A DNA stretch of 64,000 nucleotides from Citreicoccus inhibens. Lineage in GTDB: Bacteria; Myxococcota; Myxococcia; Myxococcales; Myxococcaceae. The stretch spans positions 1-64,000 of the forward strand of contig NZ_JAHNZT010000007.1 in the NCBI RefSeq assembly GCF_019039035.1, in the 5' to 3' direction. The translations under genes and the position numbers were made by a program. This document shows positions 60,352-64,000 of this stretch, piece by piece; within the stretch, counting starts at the first letter, position 1; each line of letters begins with the position of its first letter. Below the pieces are notes generated by a model. The model saw nothing but the letters and a program-made list of their open reading frames with translations, was not told the DNA's origin and searched no databases.

Positions 60352-61911
60352 ATGACCCTGCCCAACATCACCCTGGCAGACTTCCTCCCGCTGCTGCCCG
60401 CCCTCATCATGGTGGTGGGCGCCTCCATCCTGCTGCTGTCGGAGGTGTTCCTCTCCTCCTCGGCGTCCCGCGGGTACCAGGCAGTCCTCACCGTGGCCAC
60501 GGCGGTGGCGAGCGGCCTGACGGCCCTGGGGCTCATGTTCGAGCCGCCGCACGCGGTGTTCCTCGGCTACGGCGTGCTGGACCCCTTCTCCAGCTTCCTC
60601 ACGCTGGTGGTCTGCGTAGGCCTGGCGCTGGCCGCGCTCGCGTCGGTGAGCTTCCTGCGCAAGCGCGGGGCGGAGCGCGGTGAGTTCTACGCGCTGATGC
60701 TCTTCGCCTCGGCGGGCATGAGCCTGCTGGCGATGTCCGCCGAGTTCATCACCCTGTTCGTCAACCTCGAGGTCCTCTCGGTCGCGACGTACGCGCTGAC
60801 GGCGTACCTGCGGCGCGGGACGCGGCCCAGCGAGGCGGGCTTCAAGTACTTCATCCTCGGCGCCTTCTCTTCCGCGGTGCTGCTGTACGGCACGGCGCTG
60901 CTCTACGGCGCCACGGGCACCACGAAGCTGGCGGACATGGCCGGGCCGCTGTCGCAGGCGCTCGCCACCGCTCCGGCGCTCGTCTACACCGGCGCCATCC
61001 TGGTGGCCGCGGGCTTCGCCTTCAAGGTCGCGGCGGTTCCGTTCCACATGTGGACGCCGGACGTCTACGAGGGCGCGCCCACGCCCGTGACGGCGCTGAT
61101 GAGCGCGGGCGTCAAGGCGGCGGCCTTCGCGGCGATGGTCCGCGTGTTCCTCACCGTGGGCAAGGGCATGGATCCGCACATGCCGCTGGCGCTGTTCTCC
61201 ACGCTGGCGCTGCTGACCATGGTGGTGGGCAACCTGCTCGCCATCCCCCAGCGCAACGTGAAGCGCATGCTGGCGTACTCGTCCATCGCGCACGCGGGCT
61301 ATCTGCTCCTGGGCGTGGCGGCGCTGTTCGTCACGGCGCCGGGCGAGCACTTCCGCATCCTGGGCGCCTCGGCGCTGACGGGCGGCACGCCGCTGGACGT
61401 GGCGCGCTCGGACGCGCTGCGCGGCATCCTGTACTACCTCTTGGCCTACACCTTCAGCGCGGTGGGCGCCTTCGCCCTGGTGTCCGCGCTGGAGCGCCGC
61501 GAGGACGAGGACAAGGGCACCGCGTGGGACCTGGAGCGCTTCAGCGGGCTGGCGCAGCGCCGTCCGGGTTGGGCGTTCGCGATGACCGCGTTCATGCTGT
61601 CGCTGGGAGGCATCCCGCCCACCATCGGCTTCATGAGCAAGCTGCTCATCTTCCAGTCCGCCATCGACGTGGGCCTCGTGGGCCTCACCATCGTCGCGGT
61701 GCTCTCCAGCGCGGCCGGCGTGTACTACTACCTGCGCGTGGTGGTTTACATGTTCATGCGGCCGGTCCCCGAGGGTGCGCAGACGTTGGAGCGCAGCTGG
61801 GGCACGGAGGTGGCGCTCGTCATCTCCACCGTCGCCGTGGTGCTGCTGGGCATCATCCCCGGCCGCGTCAGCGAGTGGCTCGCCCACGCGGGCACGCTGT
61901 TCGGCCAGTAG
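60352..61911 (+). CDS. nuoN: NADH-quinone oxidoreductase subunit N
   Basis: 519 residues; third antiporter-like subunit. Motifs: FITLFVNLEVLSVATYALTAYLRRG (Glu), GFAFKVAAVPFHMWTPDVYEGAPTPVTALMSAGVKAAAFA (Lys), NVKRMLAYSSIAHAGYLLLGVAALF, MLSLGGIPPTIGFMSKLLIFQSAI. Last gene of the cluster; a GC-rich hairpin follows 25 bp after the stop. Confidence 0.95.
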   Translation: MTLPNITLADFLPLLPALIMVVGASILLLSEVFLSSSASRGYQAVLTVATAVASGLTALGLMFEPPHAVFLGYGVLDPFSSFLTLVVCVGLALAALASVSFLRKRGAERGEFYALMLFASAGMSLLAMSAEFITLFVNLEVLSVATYALTAYLRRGTRPSEAGFKYFILGAFSSAVLLYGTALLYGATGTTKLADMAGPLSQALATAPALVYTGAILVAAGFAFKVAAVPFHMWTPDVYEGAPTPVTALMSAGVKAAAFAAMVRVFLTVGKGMDPHMPLALFSTLALLTMVVGNLLAIPQRNVKRMLAYSSIAHAGYLLLGVAALFVTAPGEHFRILGASALTGGTPLDVARSDALRGILYYLLAYTFSAVGAFALVSALERREDEDKGTAWDLERFSGLAQRRPGWAFAMTAFMLSLGGIPPTIGFMSKLLIFQSAIDVGLVGLTIVAVLSSAAGVYYYLRVVVYMFMRPVPEGAQTLERSWGTEVALVISTVAVVLLGIIPGRVSEWLAHAGTLFGQ

Positions 61912-61935
61912 CCCTCGGACGCTTCGGCGTCACCC

Positions 61936-61967
61936 GCGCCCGCCCGGCCTCGTGCCTGGGCGGGCGC
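61936..61967 (+). terminator. Hairpin after nuoN
   Basis: GCGCCCGCCC (61936-61945) pairs exactly with GGGCGGGCGC (61958-61967). A weak T-containing tail (TGTCGTTT) follows. Probable end of the nuo transcript. Confidence 0.65.
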
Positions 61968-62051
61968 TGTCGTTTGGGGGTAGCAGCACTCCACCCGACA
62001 CGTAGGCGAGTGGGCGCGACGGGCTGACATGCCAGGCGTCCGCGAGCAGGG

Positions 62052-62183
62052 CTGGGGGGAAAAAGAAGGCGGCCCGGCACCCCAAAAGGGTGTCGGGCCG
62101 CGGGTCTTCTCAAGGTGACGCACCGGAAGTGCTGAAAGGGTGGGGGGGAACCACTTTCAGCCTCGCTTCGATGTGTCCCGCGG
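62052..62183 (-). ncRNA. pxr: pxr-like developmental regulatory sRNA
   Basis: Read on the minus strand. Stem-loop 1 (62160 to 62132): CTGAAAG and CTTTCAG, extended by GGT/ACC, exposing a loop of seven C (62142-62148). A short middle region has GCAC/GTGC and GGTG/CACC pairings. The terminator stem is at 62069-62101. From the predicted sigma-54 start (~62182) to the end of the terminator tail (~62052) is about 131 nt; from the base of stem-loop 1 it is about 108 nt. As I recall, M. xanthus Pxr blocks fruiting-body development, has forms of about 132 and 108 nt, a seven-C run in stem-loop 1, and lies by a sigma-54 regulator. Identity is inferred from this match, not alignment. Confidence 0.75.
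62055..62101 (-). terminator. Intrinsic terminator of the pxr-like sRNA
   Basis: A 14-bp stem with one G-T pair (62069-62082 with 62088-62101) and a 5-nt loop; on the minus strand it is followed by CTTCTTTTTC. On the plus strand there is no T tract, which fixes the direction. Confidence 0.85.
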
Positions 62184-62191
62184 ATTCCTTT

Positions 62192-62207
62192 AGCAGGTGC
62201 CATGCCA
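62192..62207 (-). promoter_or_regulatory. Sigma-54 (-24/-12) promoter of the pxr-like sRNA
   Basis: On the minus strand: TGGCAT, five bases, CTGCT, against consensus TGGCAC-N5-TTGCW, with exact GG-N10-GC spacing. It predicts initiation at about 62181-62183, which gives an RNA of the length expected for Pxr. Confidence 0.75.
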
Positions 62208-62280
62208 TGCGTGCCGAGGAGGCAAACTCCAGTTTTCTCAAGCACTTGAAGAAGGTGGGACATCCAGCCGCCCTCTTCCG

Positions 62281-62302
62281 CCGATTTCAGAGCTGAAATC
62301 GG
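62281..62302. promoter_or_regulatory. Perfect 22-bp palindrome upstream of pxr
   Basis: Arms CCGATTTCAG and CTGAAATCGG flank AG. Its core TTTCA-N4-TGAAA recurs in the next dyad. It lies about 90 bp upstream of the pxr -24/-12 element, the usual distance for an enhancer site. The same arm pattern is found before kdsB. Confidence 0.65.
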
Positions 62303-62303
62303 G

Positions 62304-62317
62304 TTTCAAATCTGAAA
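62304..62317. promoter_or_regulatory. Second TTTCA-N4-TGAAA dyad upstream of pxr
   Basis: TTTCA (62304-62308), AATC, TGAAA (62313-62317), with near-symmetric flanks (GGG and CCC). Its centre is 19 bp from that of the adjacent palindrome, so the two sites lie on nearly the same face of the helix, as in NtrC-type enhancers. Confidence 0.6.
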
Positions 62318-62414
62318 ACCCCCAACGAGTTCAGGTGGTTGCATTTTTCATGGATGAACCCGGGGGATTCCCCGGCTGCACTCGCTTCGGACAGGTGCCC
62401 GGGCGGGCGCGGGG

Positions 62415-63845
62415 CTAGTCCCGGACGACGTCCGGGGGAGGGCGGAGGTTGAGGCGCTTCATCTTCCGCCAGAGGGTGGTGGAGGAGACGCCCAGTTCGT
62501 CCGCCACCCGCGCCAGGTCCACCCCGTGGCGCTCCAGGGATTGGGCGATCGCGCGGCGCTCGGCTTCTTCCACGGCCTCGGCCAGGGACAGGCCGGTGGG
62601 CGCCCCCGGAGCTCTCTCCTCCTGGGCGGGGAGTCCGGGCGGCGGCGCCACGCGCCCCTGCGGGCGGAGCGGGAAGTCCTCGGGCAGCAGCTCATCGCCC
62701 TCGGCGAGCGCGGCGGCCTGCTCCACCAGGTTCTCCAACTCGCGCACGTTGCCGGGGAAGCCATACGTCATGAGGTGCTCCACCGCCGACGCGGACAGGC
62801 GCTTCGGACGGGGGCTGCGGGCGTTGGCGCGCTCCAGGAAGTGCTCGGCCAGGGCGGGCACGTCCTCCAGGCGCTCGCGCAGGGGCGGCACGCGCAGCAT
62901 CACCACGTTGAGGCGGTAGTAGAGGTCCTGGCGAAATCGCTTCTCGCGCACCTCCAGCTCGATGTCGCGGTTGGTGGCGGCGGCGATGCGCACGTCCACG
63001 CGCAGCGCCGTGGACTCGCCGACGCGGCGCACCTCGCCGTCCTGGAGCGTGCGCAGCAGCTTGGACTGGAAGGTGGGGCTCGTCTCCGTCACCTCGTCGA
63101 TGAAGAGCGTGCCGCCGTCGGCCTCCTCGAAGAGGCCGGTGCGCGCCTTCACCGCGCCCGTGAAGGCGCCCTTGGCGTGGCCGAACAGCTCGCTCTCCAG
63201 CAGCGTCTCGCTGATGGCGGCGCAGTTGACCGGGACGAAGGGGCGCGAGCTGCGCCGGCTGTGCGCGTGGAGCGCTCGCGCCACCAGCTCCTTGCCCGTG
63301 CCGCTCTCGCCCTGGATGAGCACGGTGGCGTCGCTCTGCGCGACGCGCAGCAGGCGCGTGGTCAGCTCGCGCATGGCGGGGCTGCGGCCCACGAGCGCCG
63401 ACAGGCCGTGGCGCTGGTTGAACTCGCTGGCGAAGGTGTCCACCGCCGCCTGGAGCTTGGCGCGCTCCAACGCGCGCTCCACGCGGTAGCGCAGCTCGCC
63501 TTCCTTGAAGGGCTTGGTGACGTAGTCGTAGGCCCCCAGGCGCATGGCCTCCACCGCGCTCTCGATGGAGCCGAACGCCGTCATCATGATGACCTGGAGC
63601 CGAGGGGCGACCTCCAGCCCGCGCTTCAGGAGCGTGAGCCCGTCCATGGGCTCCATCTTCAAGTCCGTCAGCAAGAGGTCCACGGGGCCGCTGGCCAACA
63701 GGCGCAGGGCCTCGTCGCCCGTGGCCGCCTCGGAGACGGTGTAGCCCTCGGCGCGGAGGAGCAGCGCGGTGGTGGCGCGCATGTTGCGCTGGTCGTCCAC
63801 CACGAGGATGCGTCCGCGGGGAAGCTGGGTGCTCGCGTTGGTCAT
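62415..63845 (-). CDS. pxrR: Sigma-54-dependent response regulator (PxrR-like)
   Basis: 476 residues. Receiver: ILVVDDQRN, phospho-acceptor Asp61 in [13 protein letters not shown], switch VIMMTAFGS, Lys in [14 protein letters not shown]+ domain ~150-385: Walker [28 protein letters not shown] (intact sigma-54 loop), Walker [33 protein letters not shown]. Fis-type HTH at the end ([26 protein letters not shown]). It overlaps the upstream kinase by ATGA. The sigma-54 promoter and dyads beyond its stop make the pxr-like sRNA its likely target. The symbol rests on the locus match and is tentative. Confidence 0.88.
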
Positions 63846-64000
63846 GGGAAGGACGGGGGCTGCGACAGCGGCAGCCGGAAGGTGAAGGTGGTACCACGGC
63901 CGAGGGTGCTCTCCACGGCAATCTCCCCGTGATGCTCCTCGAGGATGCGCTTCACCACCGCGAGCCCCAGCCCGGTGCCTTGCGCCTTGGTGGTGAAGAA
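63842..64000 (-). CDS. Histidine kinase, C-terminal end only (PxrK-like)
   Basis: Only the last 52 residues are inside the window; the gene begins to the right. [45 protein letters not shown] contains the F and G2 boxes of the HATPase domain. Its TGA overlaps the regulator ATG by 4 bp, so kinase and regulator are coupled. By position it corresponds to the kinase of the Pxr pathway. Confidence 0.85.

Follow-up and report, generated by a model that had tools for sequence, protein, structure and literature searches.

A probable sigma-54 control region for the small RNA Pxr in Citreicoccus inhibens: candidate PxrR enhancer dyads, a longer predicted 5′ end and C-loop RNA relatives across the Myxococcales

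Through which DNA elements is the small RNA Pxr controlled in Citreicoccus inhibens, and does the regulator encoded beside it act through them? In M. xanthus, Pxr synthesis depends genetically on the kinase PxrK and the response regulator PxrR (pxrK/pxrR = spdS/spdR; pxrR also nla19; PMC10217877). Predictions already published for M. xanthus pxr give it a sigma-54 promoter together with an 'upstream enhancer binding region' (PMC5684412, PMC5568312). An earlier note on 64,000 nucleotides of C. inhibens DNA (the whole stretch analysed here, hereafter the window) had described a chain of kinase, regulator, two dyads, sigma-54 box and sRNA. All of these elements are present in that order, and the circuit is right but not new; it is already known in M. 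xanthus, and our finding mostly re-describes it at the level of sequence. The analysis adds a defined enhancer motif that is nearly unique in the genome and is lost together with PxrR. It also probably corrects the 5′ end of Pxr, and it brings out a family of C-loop RNAs, spread across the order, that share this control.

The Rfam RF01812 model matches positions 62061–62168 of the minus strand with a covariance-model score of 122.8 bits, above the gathering score of 80 (E 1.5e-21), and comprises SL1 with its C7 loop, SL2 and SL3/terminator. Loss of the SL1 loop, or a single C-to-A change within it, inactivates Pxr in M. xanthus (PMC5684412). As is characteristic of RF01812, the gene is placed between that of an NtrC-type regulator (nla19) and an NADH dehydrogenase gene, which has been found adjoining every pxr locus examined (PMC5568312); in the window this conserved neighbour is a nuoN-type subunit ORF, named by resemblance, on the plus strand at 60352–61911 and convergent with pxr. 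Reading along the minus strand, the order is pxrR (63845–62415), a weak dyad (62359–62346), two exact dyads (62317–62304 and 62298–62285), the sigma-54 box (62207–62192), Pxr and the convergent nuoN. A second RF01812 match in the C. inhibens genome (C46:107489, 35.6 bits) was rejected as a pxr paralogue, having neither dyads nor a C-loop and lacking a good sigma-54 box.

The product of pxrR (62415–63845, minus strand), the spdR/nla19 orthologue, is an NtrC-type enhancer-binding response regulator of 476 aa. Profile matches identify a receiver (PF00072), an AAA+ sigma-54 activator domain (Sigma54_activat, PF00158) in which GAFTGA is visible, and a Fis-type HTH (PF02954), and the protein is 84% identical to PxrR of M. 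xanthus AM003 (locus L187). Its stop codon ends at 62415, just beyond the dyads, where the earlier note had placed such a regulator. Overlapping the start of pxrR on the same strand is the 3′ end of pxrK (63842–64000), encoding a PAS-GAF-HisKA-HATPase kinase; the complete gene is contained only beyond the window (contig C101:63842–66553, start codon uncertain).

The coordinates given previously for the -24/-12 element and the dyads proved correct. The element, TGGCATGGCACCTGCT, is a GG-N10-GC box with exact spacing in a TGGCA..TGC context at 62207–62192 of the minus strand. Its score alone is unexceptional, as nine GG-N10-GC sites in the window, the pxr box and eight others, score equally. Upstream lie two TTTCA-N4-TGAAA dyads, written here as plus-strand letters: the proximal dyad TTTCAGAGCTGAAA at 62285–62298 (centre 62291.5, about -111) and the distal dyad TTTCAAATCTGAAA at 62304–62317 (centre 62310.5, about -130). 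Their centres are separated by exactly 19 bp and lie at distances of 92 and 111 bp from the midpoint of the box (90 and 110 bp in the earlier note), and the palindrome of the proximal dyad is longer than the core, extending to CGATTTCA-N4-TGAAATCG. We propose both dyads as PxrR sites.

To call this region 'complete' claims slightly too much, as one more site, half-conserved, and an element like an IHF site had been overlooked. The former, the imperfect dyad TTTCATGGATGAAC at 62346–62359 (centre about -172), has a half-site identity of 0.84 in 42 loci; it is possibly an auxiliary PxrR site. In g1, g5 and g19, and before the majority of first copies in g3 and g6, a weak third dyad lies -182 to -193 relative to the Rfam start. 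The latter, TCTCAAGCACTTG at 62236–62248 of the plus strand (-67 to -55), is a conserved palindrome with one mismatch to WATCAANNNNTTR. IHF-like sites with at most one mismatch are present in 39 of 114 distinct spacers against 2.3 expected, which is suggestive, and only suggestive, of an IHF-type DNA-bending site.

To place these elements in a wider context, we compared 121 Rfam-Pxr matches from 25 genera of the C. inhibens family, the Myxococcaceae. In 116 of these loci a sigma-54 box stands before pxr at an almost constant position. It is accompanied by two or more exact TTKCAN4TGMAA dyads in 97 of the 116, and by at least one in 109, where chance predicts 0.00025 single dyads per 190 bp; their separation is mostly 19 bp (62 loci), with median centres at -111 and -130. 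Across 42 loci of six genera, column identity is 0.99 in the box and 0.93–0.96 in the half-sites, as against 0.67 in the dyad centres and in the spacer between dyads and promoter and 0.67–0.69 in the flanks. It is therefore position and conservation, not score, that make the sigma-54 box credible. Tandem pxr copies (g3, which is Archangium, and g6) have their own promoter and dyad sites before the units.

The paired-dyad pattern was found in 98 of 145 Myxococcales genomes, in one of 50 elsewhere in the phylum and, with the pattern reversed, in none of 195, counts of species and genomes here being phylogenetically non-independent. A scan for the pair followed by TGGCAY over 84,980 species matched 64 stretches. 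All Myxococcales matches lead into a C-loop RNA, except two where the sequence ends (L155, L213), and none of the matches outside the Myxococcales is followed by one. Five paired dyads without a sigma-54 box (L136, L140, L146, L148, L150) and three pairs whose box is poor and which lack a C-run (L142, L147, L149) were left out of the counts; L148 (G080:C11:147889) and L150 (G082:C35:69667) are second dyad pairs of similar spacing in two g7 species. In Comamonadaceae-type genomes (L154, L179, L181, L198, L206), protein genes are preceded by similar TTTCA/TGAAA pairs with a good sigma-54 box, which probably serve another NtrC-type activator. A separate record, L175, filed under Comamonas sp. KCTC 72670, contains a pxr contig of the Myxococcus type and is apparently a mislabelled genome.

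Within C. inhibens the dyads are nearly unique. The window contains two exact copies of TTTCAN4TGAAA, both in the pxr control region, compared with none in 100 shuffles, and the 9.05-Mb genome holds three copies of TTKCAN4TGMAA, two of which are the pxr pair. For the third exact dyad of the genome (L088, G000:C46:57122–57135), the 260 bp downstream contain no sigma-54 box, whichever strand is read. PxrR may thus have close to one target; with one mismatch allowed, however, the genome has 104 dyads, fewer than the reversed control (203), so PxrR may have further targets.

The assignment of the dyads to PxrR was examined through their fate in genomes without this regulator. Orthologues of PxrR (E ≤1e-150, identity ≥57%) stand clearly apart from paralogues (near 1e-120, ≤51%); one genome, G124, was entered as PxrR-positive on a 70% identical fragment at its locus, cut by the contig end. 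The sRNA is present in 118 of 127 PxrR-positive genomes, its match being absent in the other nine, versus 5 of 18 PxrR-negative genomes (Fisher p 2.6e-9, the genomes not being independent). The only three family genomes without Pxr (G049, G086, G134) are missing PxrR, the dyad pair and the RNA altogether. Five PxrR-negative genomes retain Pxr (L067 and L074 of genus g21; L069, L070 and L073 of g23), and these have no dyads, genus g21 being also without the sigma-54 box. The PxrR-less genera may have switched to a sigma-70 promoter, to judge by TTGAC(A/T)/TTGTCA seen by eye near -35, though scanning two of the loci called no such site. The strongest available argument for taking the dyads as PxrR sites is their absence from PxrR-less g21 and g23, which keep Pxr; together with conservation and near-uniqueness, this co-loss supports reading them as PxrR binding sites.

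One could suppose instead that the dyads are bound not by PxrR but by a repressor or some other protein of the NtrC type, with PxrR acting via other DNA or indirectly. The PxrR sites are predicted, myxobacteria encode many NtrC-type regulators (up to 11 strong matches per genome), and the Comamonadaceae-type pairs, with their sigma-54 box before protein genes, presumably belong to another activator. Yet the pxr dyads lie at enhancer distance (-111/-130) and beside pxrR in most lineages, and they are missing where the PxrR orthologue is missing, in g21 and g23 as in G049, G086 and G134, which lack PxrR, pair and RNA. We therefore regard a different dyad-binding protein as unlikely, and retain PxrR.

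Where the RNA begins bears on whether the sigma-54 box is used. The published 108-nt Pxr gene starts at the equivalent of 62168 (PMC5568312), whereas the sigma-54 +1 predicted from the box, a feature that the earlier note did not give, falls at 62181, 13 nt upstream of this published and Rfam 5′ end. The intervening leader (62169–62181, minus strand) has a column identity of 0.94 and can pair with the 'SL2' region, enclosing SL1. Because the alignment of the Pxr core misaligned the variable outer stem, we used an alignment-free permutation, taking one representative of each of 20 genera and shuffling partners between genera: pairing of each leader with its own SL2 averages -15.6 kcal/mol, versus -11.4 (sd 0.67) for permuted partners, and none of 20,000 permutations was as low. 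On this co-evolution the leader very likely belongs to the Pxr RNA. In every locus measured, the C-run begins at +27 to +35 relative to the sigma-54 start, a covariance model made from outgroup RNAs (below) likewise starts upstream of the Rfam start at pxr, and the leader pairing gives Pxr the same nested shape as those RNAs. The 5′ end and fold of Pxr are thus likely corrected.

The alternative that a housekeeping promoter starts Pxr near 62168, with the sigma-54 box unused, would accord with the published gene start and with the equal scores of other GG-N10-GC sites in the window. Against it, the promoter scan called no sigma-70-type site in 62000–62500, the sigma-54 box is conserved at 0.99, the C-run keeps its distance from the sigma-54 start, the leader ahead of 62168 shows co-evolution with SL2, and genetic work in M. 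xanthus makes Pxr dependent on PxrR, a sigma-54 activator (PMC10217877), all of which makes such a start quite improbable. For a start at the sigma-54 position, the predicted leader–SL2 fold competes with the SL2 hairpin of the published three-hairpin fold; whether this alternative bears on the Pxr-L and Pxr-S forms is speculation. A processed (monophosphate) Pxr end at AAGCGAGG would also fit a sigma-54 start.

That the dyads, as inverted repeats downstream of the pxrR stop codon, owe their conservation to RNA folding or termination at the 3′ end of pxrR mRNA, and not to a bound protein, deserves hardly any credence, given their short arms, 4-nt centres, two copies at a fixed 19-bp spacing and want of a T-tract, and their recurrence before tandem pxr copies away from pxrR and in f2 and f8 loci without an adjacent pxrR.

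We consider it highly probable that the region as a whole is the sigma-54 control region of the pxr sRNA, leading from PxrK through PxrR, the dyads and sigma-54 to a Pxr start at about 62181; the contact of PxrR with the dyads, IHF, the exact start and the operation of the circuit in C. inhibens are what we infer within it. PxrK, a PAS-GAF histidine kinase, would phosphorylate PxrR, and PxrR dimers would occupy both TTTCA-N4-TGAAA dyads, centred at about -111 and -130, perhaps with help from the third dyad and from an IHF-type bend around -61. Once assembled, the AAA+ PxrR oligomer would remodel RNA polymerase–sigma54 at the -24/-12 box, so that Pxr would start at about 62181, and the 13-nt leader, paired with the 'SL2' strand, would present the functional part of the RNA, SL1 and its C7 loop. 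A genetically known circuit becomes in this way a defined, mutable DNA module.

How far does this module extend? Dyads and a sigma-54 box precede an unannotated short hairpin RNA with a C6-9 loop in families without Rfam Pxr, Anaeromyxobacter among them (A. oryzae L174, A. oryzisoli L160). RF01812 gave no Pxr match in 14 outgroup loci even at E 5, so that these RNAs fall outside Rfam membership and a new model was needed. The covariance model R1, whose E-values are rough, was built from nine outgroup RNAs and no Myxococcaceae sequence. It has matches in f2, f3, f6, f7 and f8 and in none of 50 genomes outside the order, and in 14 Myxococcaceae genomes its match is pxr itself. A model free of Pxr thus recovers pxr, and the geometry of sigma-54 box, dyads and C-loop is the same: 29 of 30 retrieved matches could be measured (L231, off-centre in its cut locus, was left out), and all 29 have a sigma-54 box, a C-run that starts at about +28 to +35 and, upstream, one or more dyads with a single mismatch or none. 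On the grounds of the model, of architecture and partly of synteny, we regard the outgroup C-loop RNAs as relatives of Pxr, not as Rfam members.

These unannotated sigma-54-driven RNAs of 70–110 nt (L106 1650–1735, L174, L160, L103–L114, L141, L215–L244) take two forms. Either a single nested hairpin has the terminator as its outer stem (f3, f6, f8), or, like Pxr, a nested hairpin is followed by a separate terminator (some f2); in L106 the inner hairpin GAAGUAGGUCCCCCCCCGCCACUUC sits within the long terminator stem. Genome G041 has three tandem copies (L226, G041:C158), a second copy there being without dyads, and in G023 the RNA is present twice, the additional copy (L194, G023:C115) having dyads and a promoter to itself. 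The PxrR orthologue adjoins the C-loop RNA in g31, g33, g36, f6 and f9, and is present elsewhere in the genome in most f2 genomes, f7, f8 (G138, G139) and g32.

A joint reading, which we consider likely, takes Pxr as what the Myxococcaceae have of a C-loop sRNA family that PxrR and sigma-54 drive across the whole order, Anaeromyxobacter included, so that the ancestral role may not be a fruiting-body checkpoint; it also has Pxr begin at the sigma-54 +1, 13 nt before the published 5′ end, its leader enclosing SL1 via 'SL2'. Both the control module and a Pxr-like C-loop RNA occur across the Myxococcales. Anaeromyxobacter is not known to fruit; since the module is present there, its original function is open to study apart from development. 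Published work places the origin of Pxr at the base of the Cystobacterineae, now the order Myxococcales (PMC5684412, PMC8538405), which is compatible with these findings.

The M. xanthus pxr/pxrR-pxrK locus (MXAN_1077-1078; spdS/spdR, nla19) has the same kinase–regulator–sRNA order with an NADH dehydrogenase gene beyond, a pxr of the same Rfam family, and a predicted sigma-54 promoter and enhancer region. It has pxrA (MXAN_1079) between pxr and nuoN, whereas C. inhibens does not, the gap in the window (61912–62060) being too small for it. In M. xanthus rpoN is an essential gene. An hfq homologue is absent from M. xanthus (PMC5684412). In the open papers that the literature search covered, the dyads are not described as a PxrR site, nor are the dyads and 13-nt leader described for M. 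xanthus pxr.

The arrangement resembles NtrC/glnA-type promoters in its paired dyads for an activated response regulator some 110–130 bp upstream, its GG-N10-GC box and its IHF-like bend site. The NtrC site is TGCACC-N5-GGTGCA; the pxr site differs in being TTKCA-N4-TGMAA with a 19-bp centre spacing, in having almost a single target in the genome and in serving an sRNA. In the LuxO-Qrr and CbrB-CrcZ systems, too, an NtrC-type regulator activates one or more sRNAs from sigma-54 promoters, and some genomes have several sRNA copies, as with tandem pxr. The RNAs and binding sites of those systems are nevertheless unrelated to the ones described here, and it is Pxr that has the hairpin with a C7 loop.
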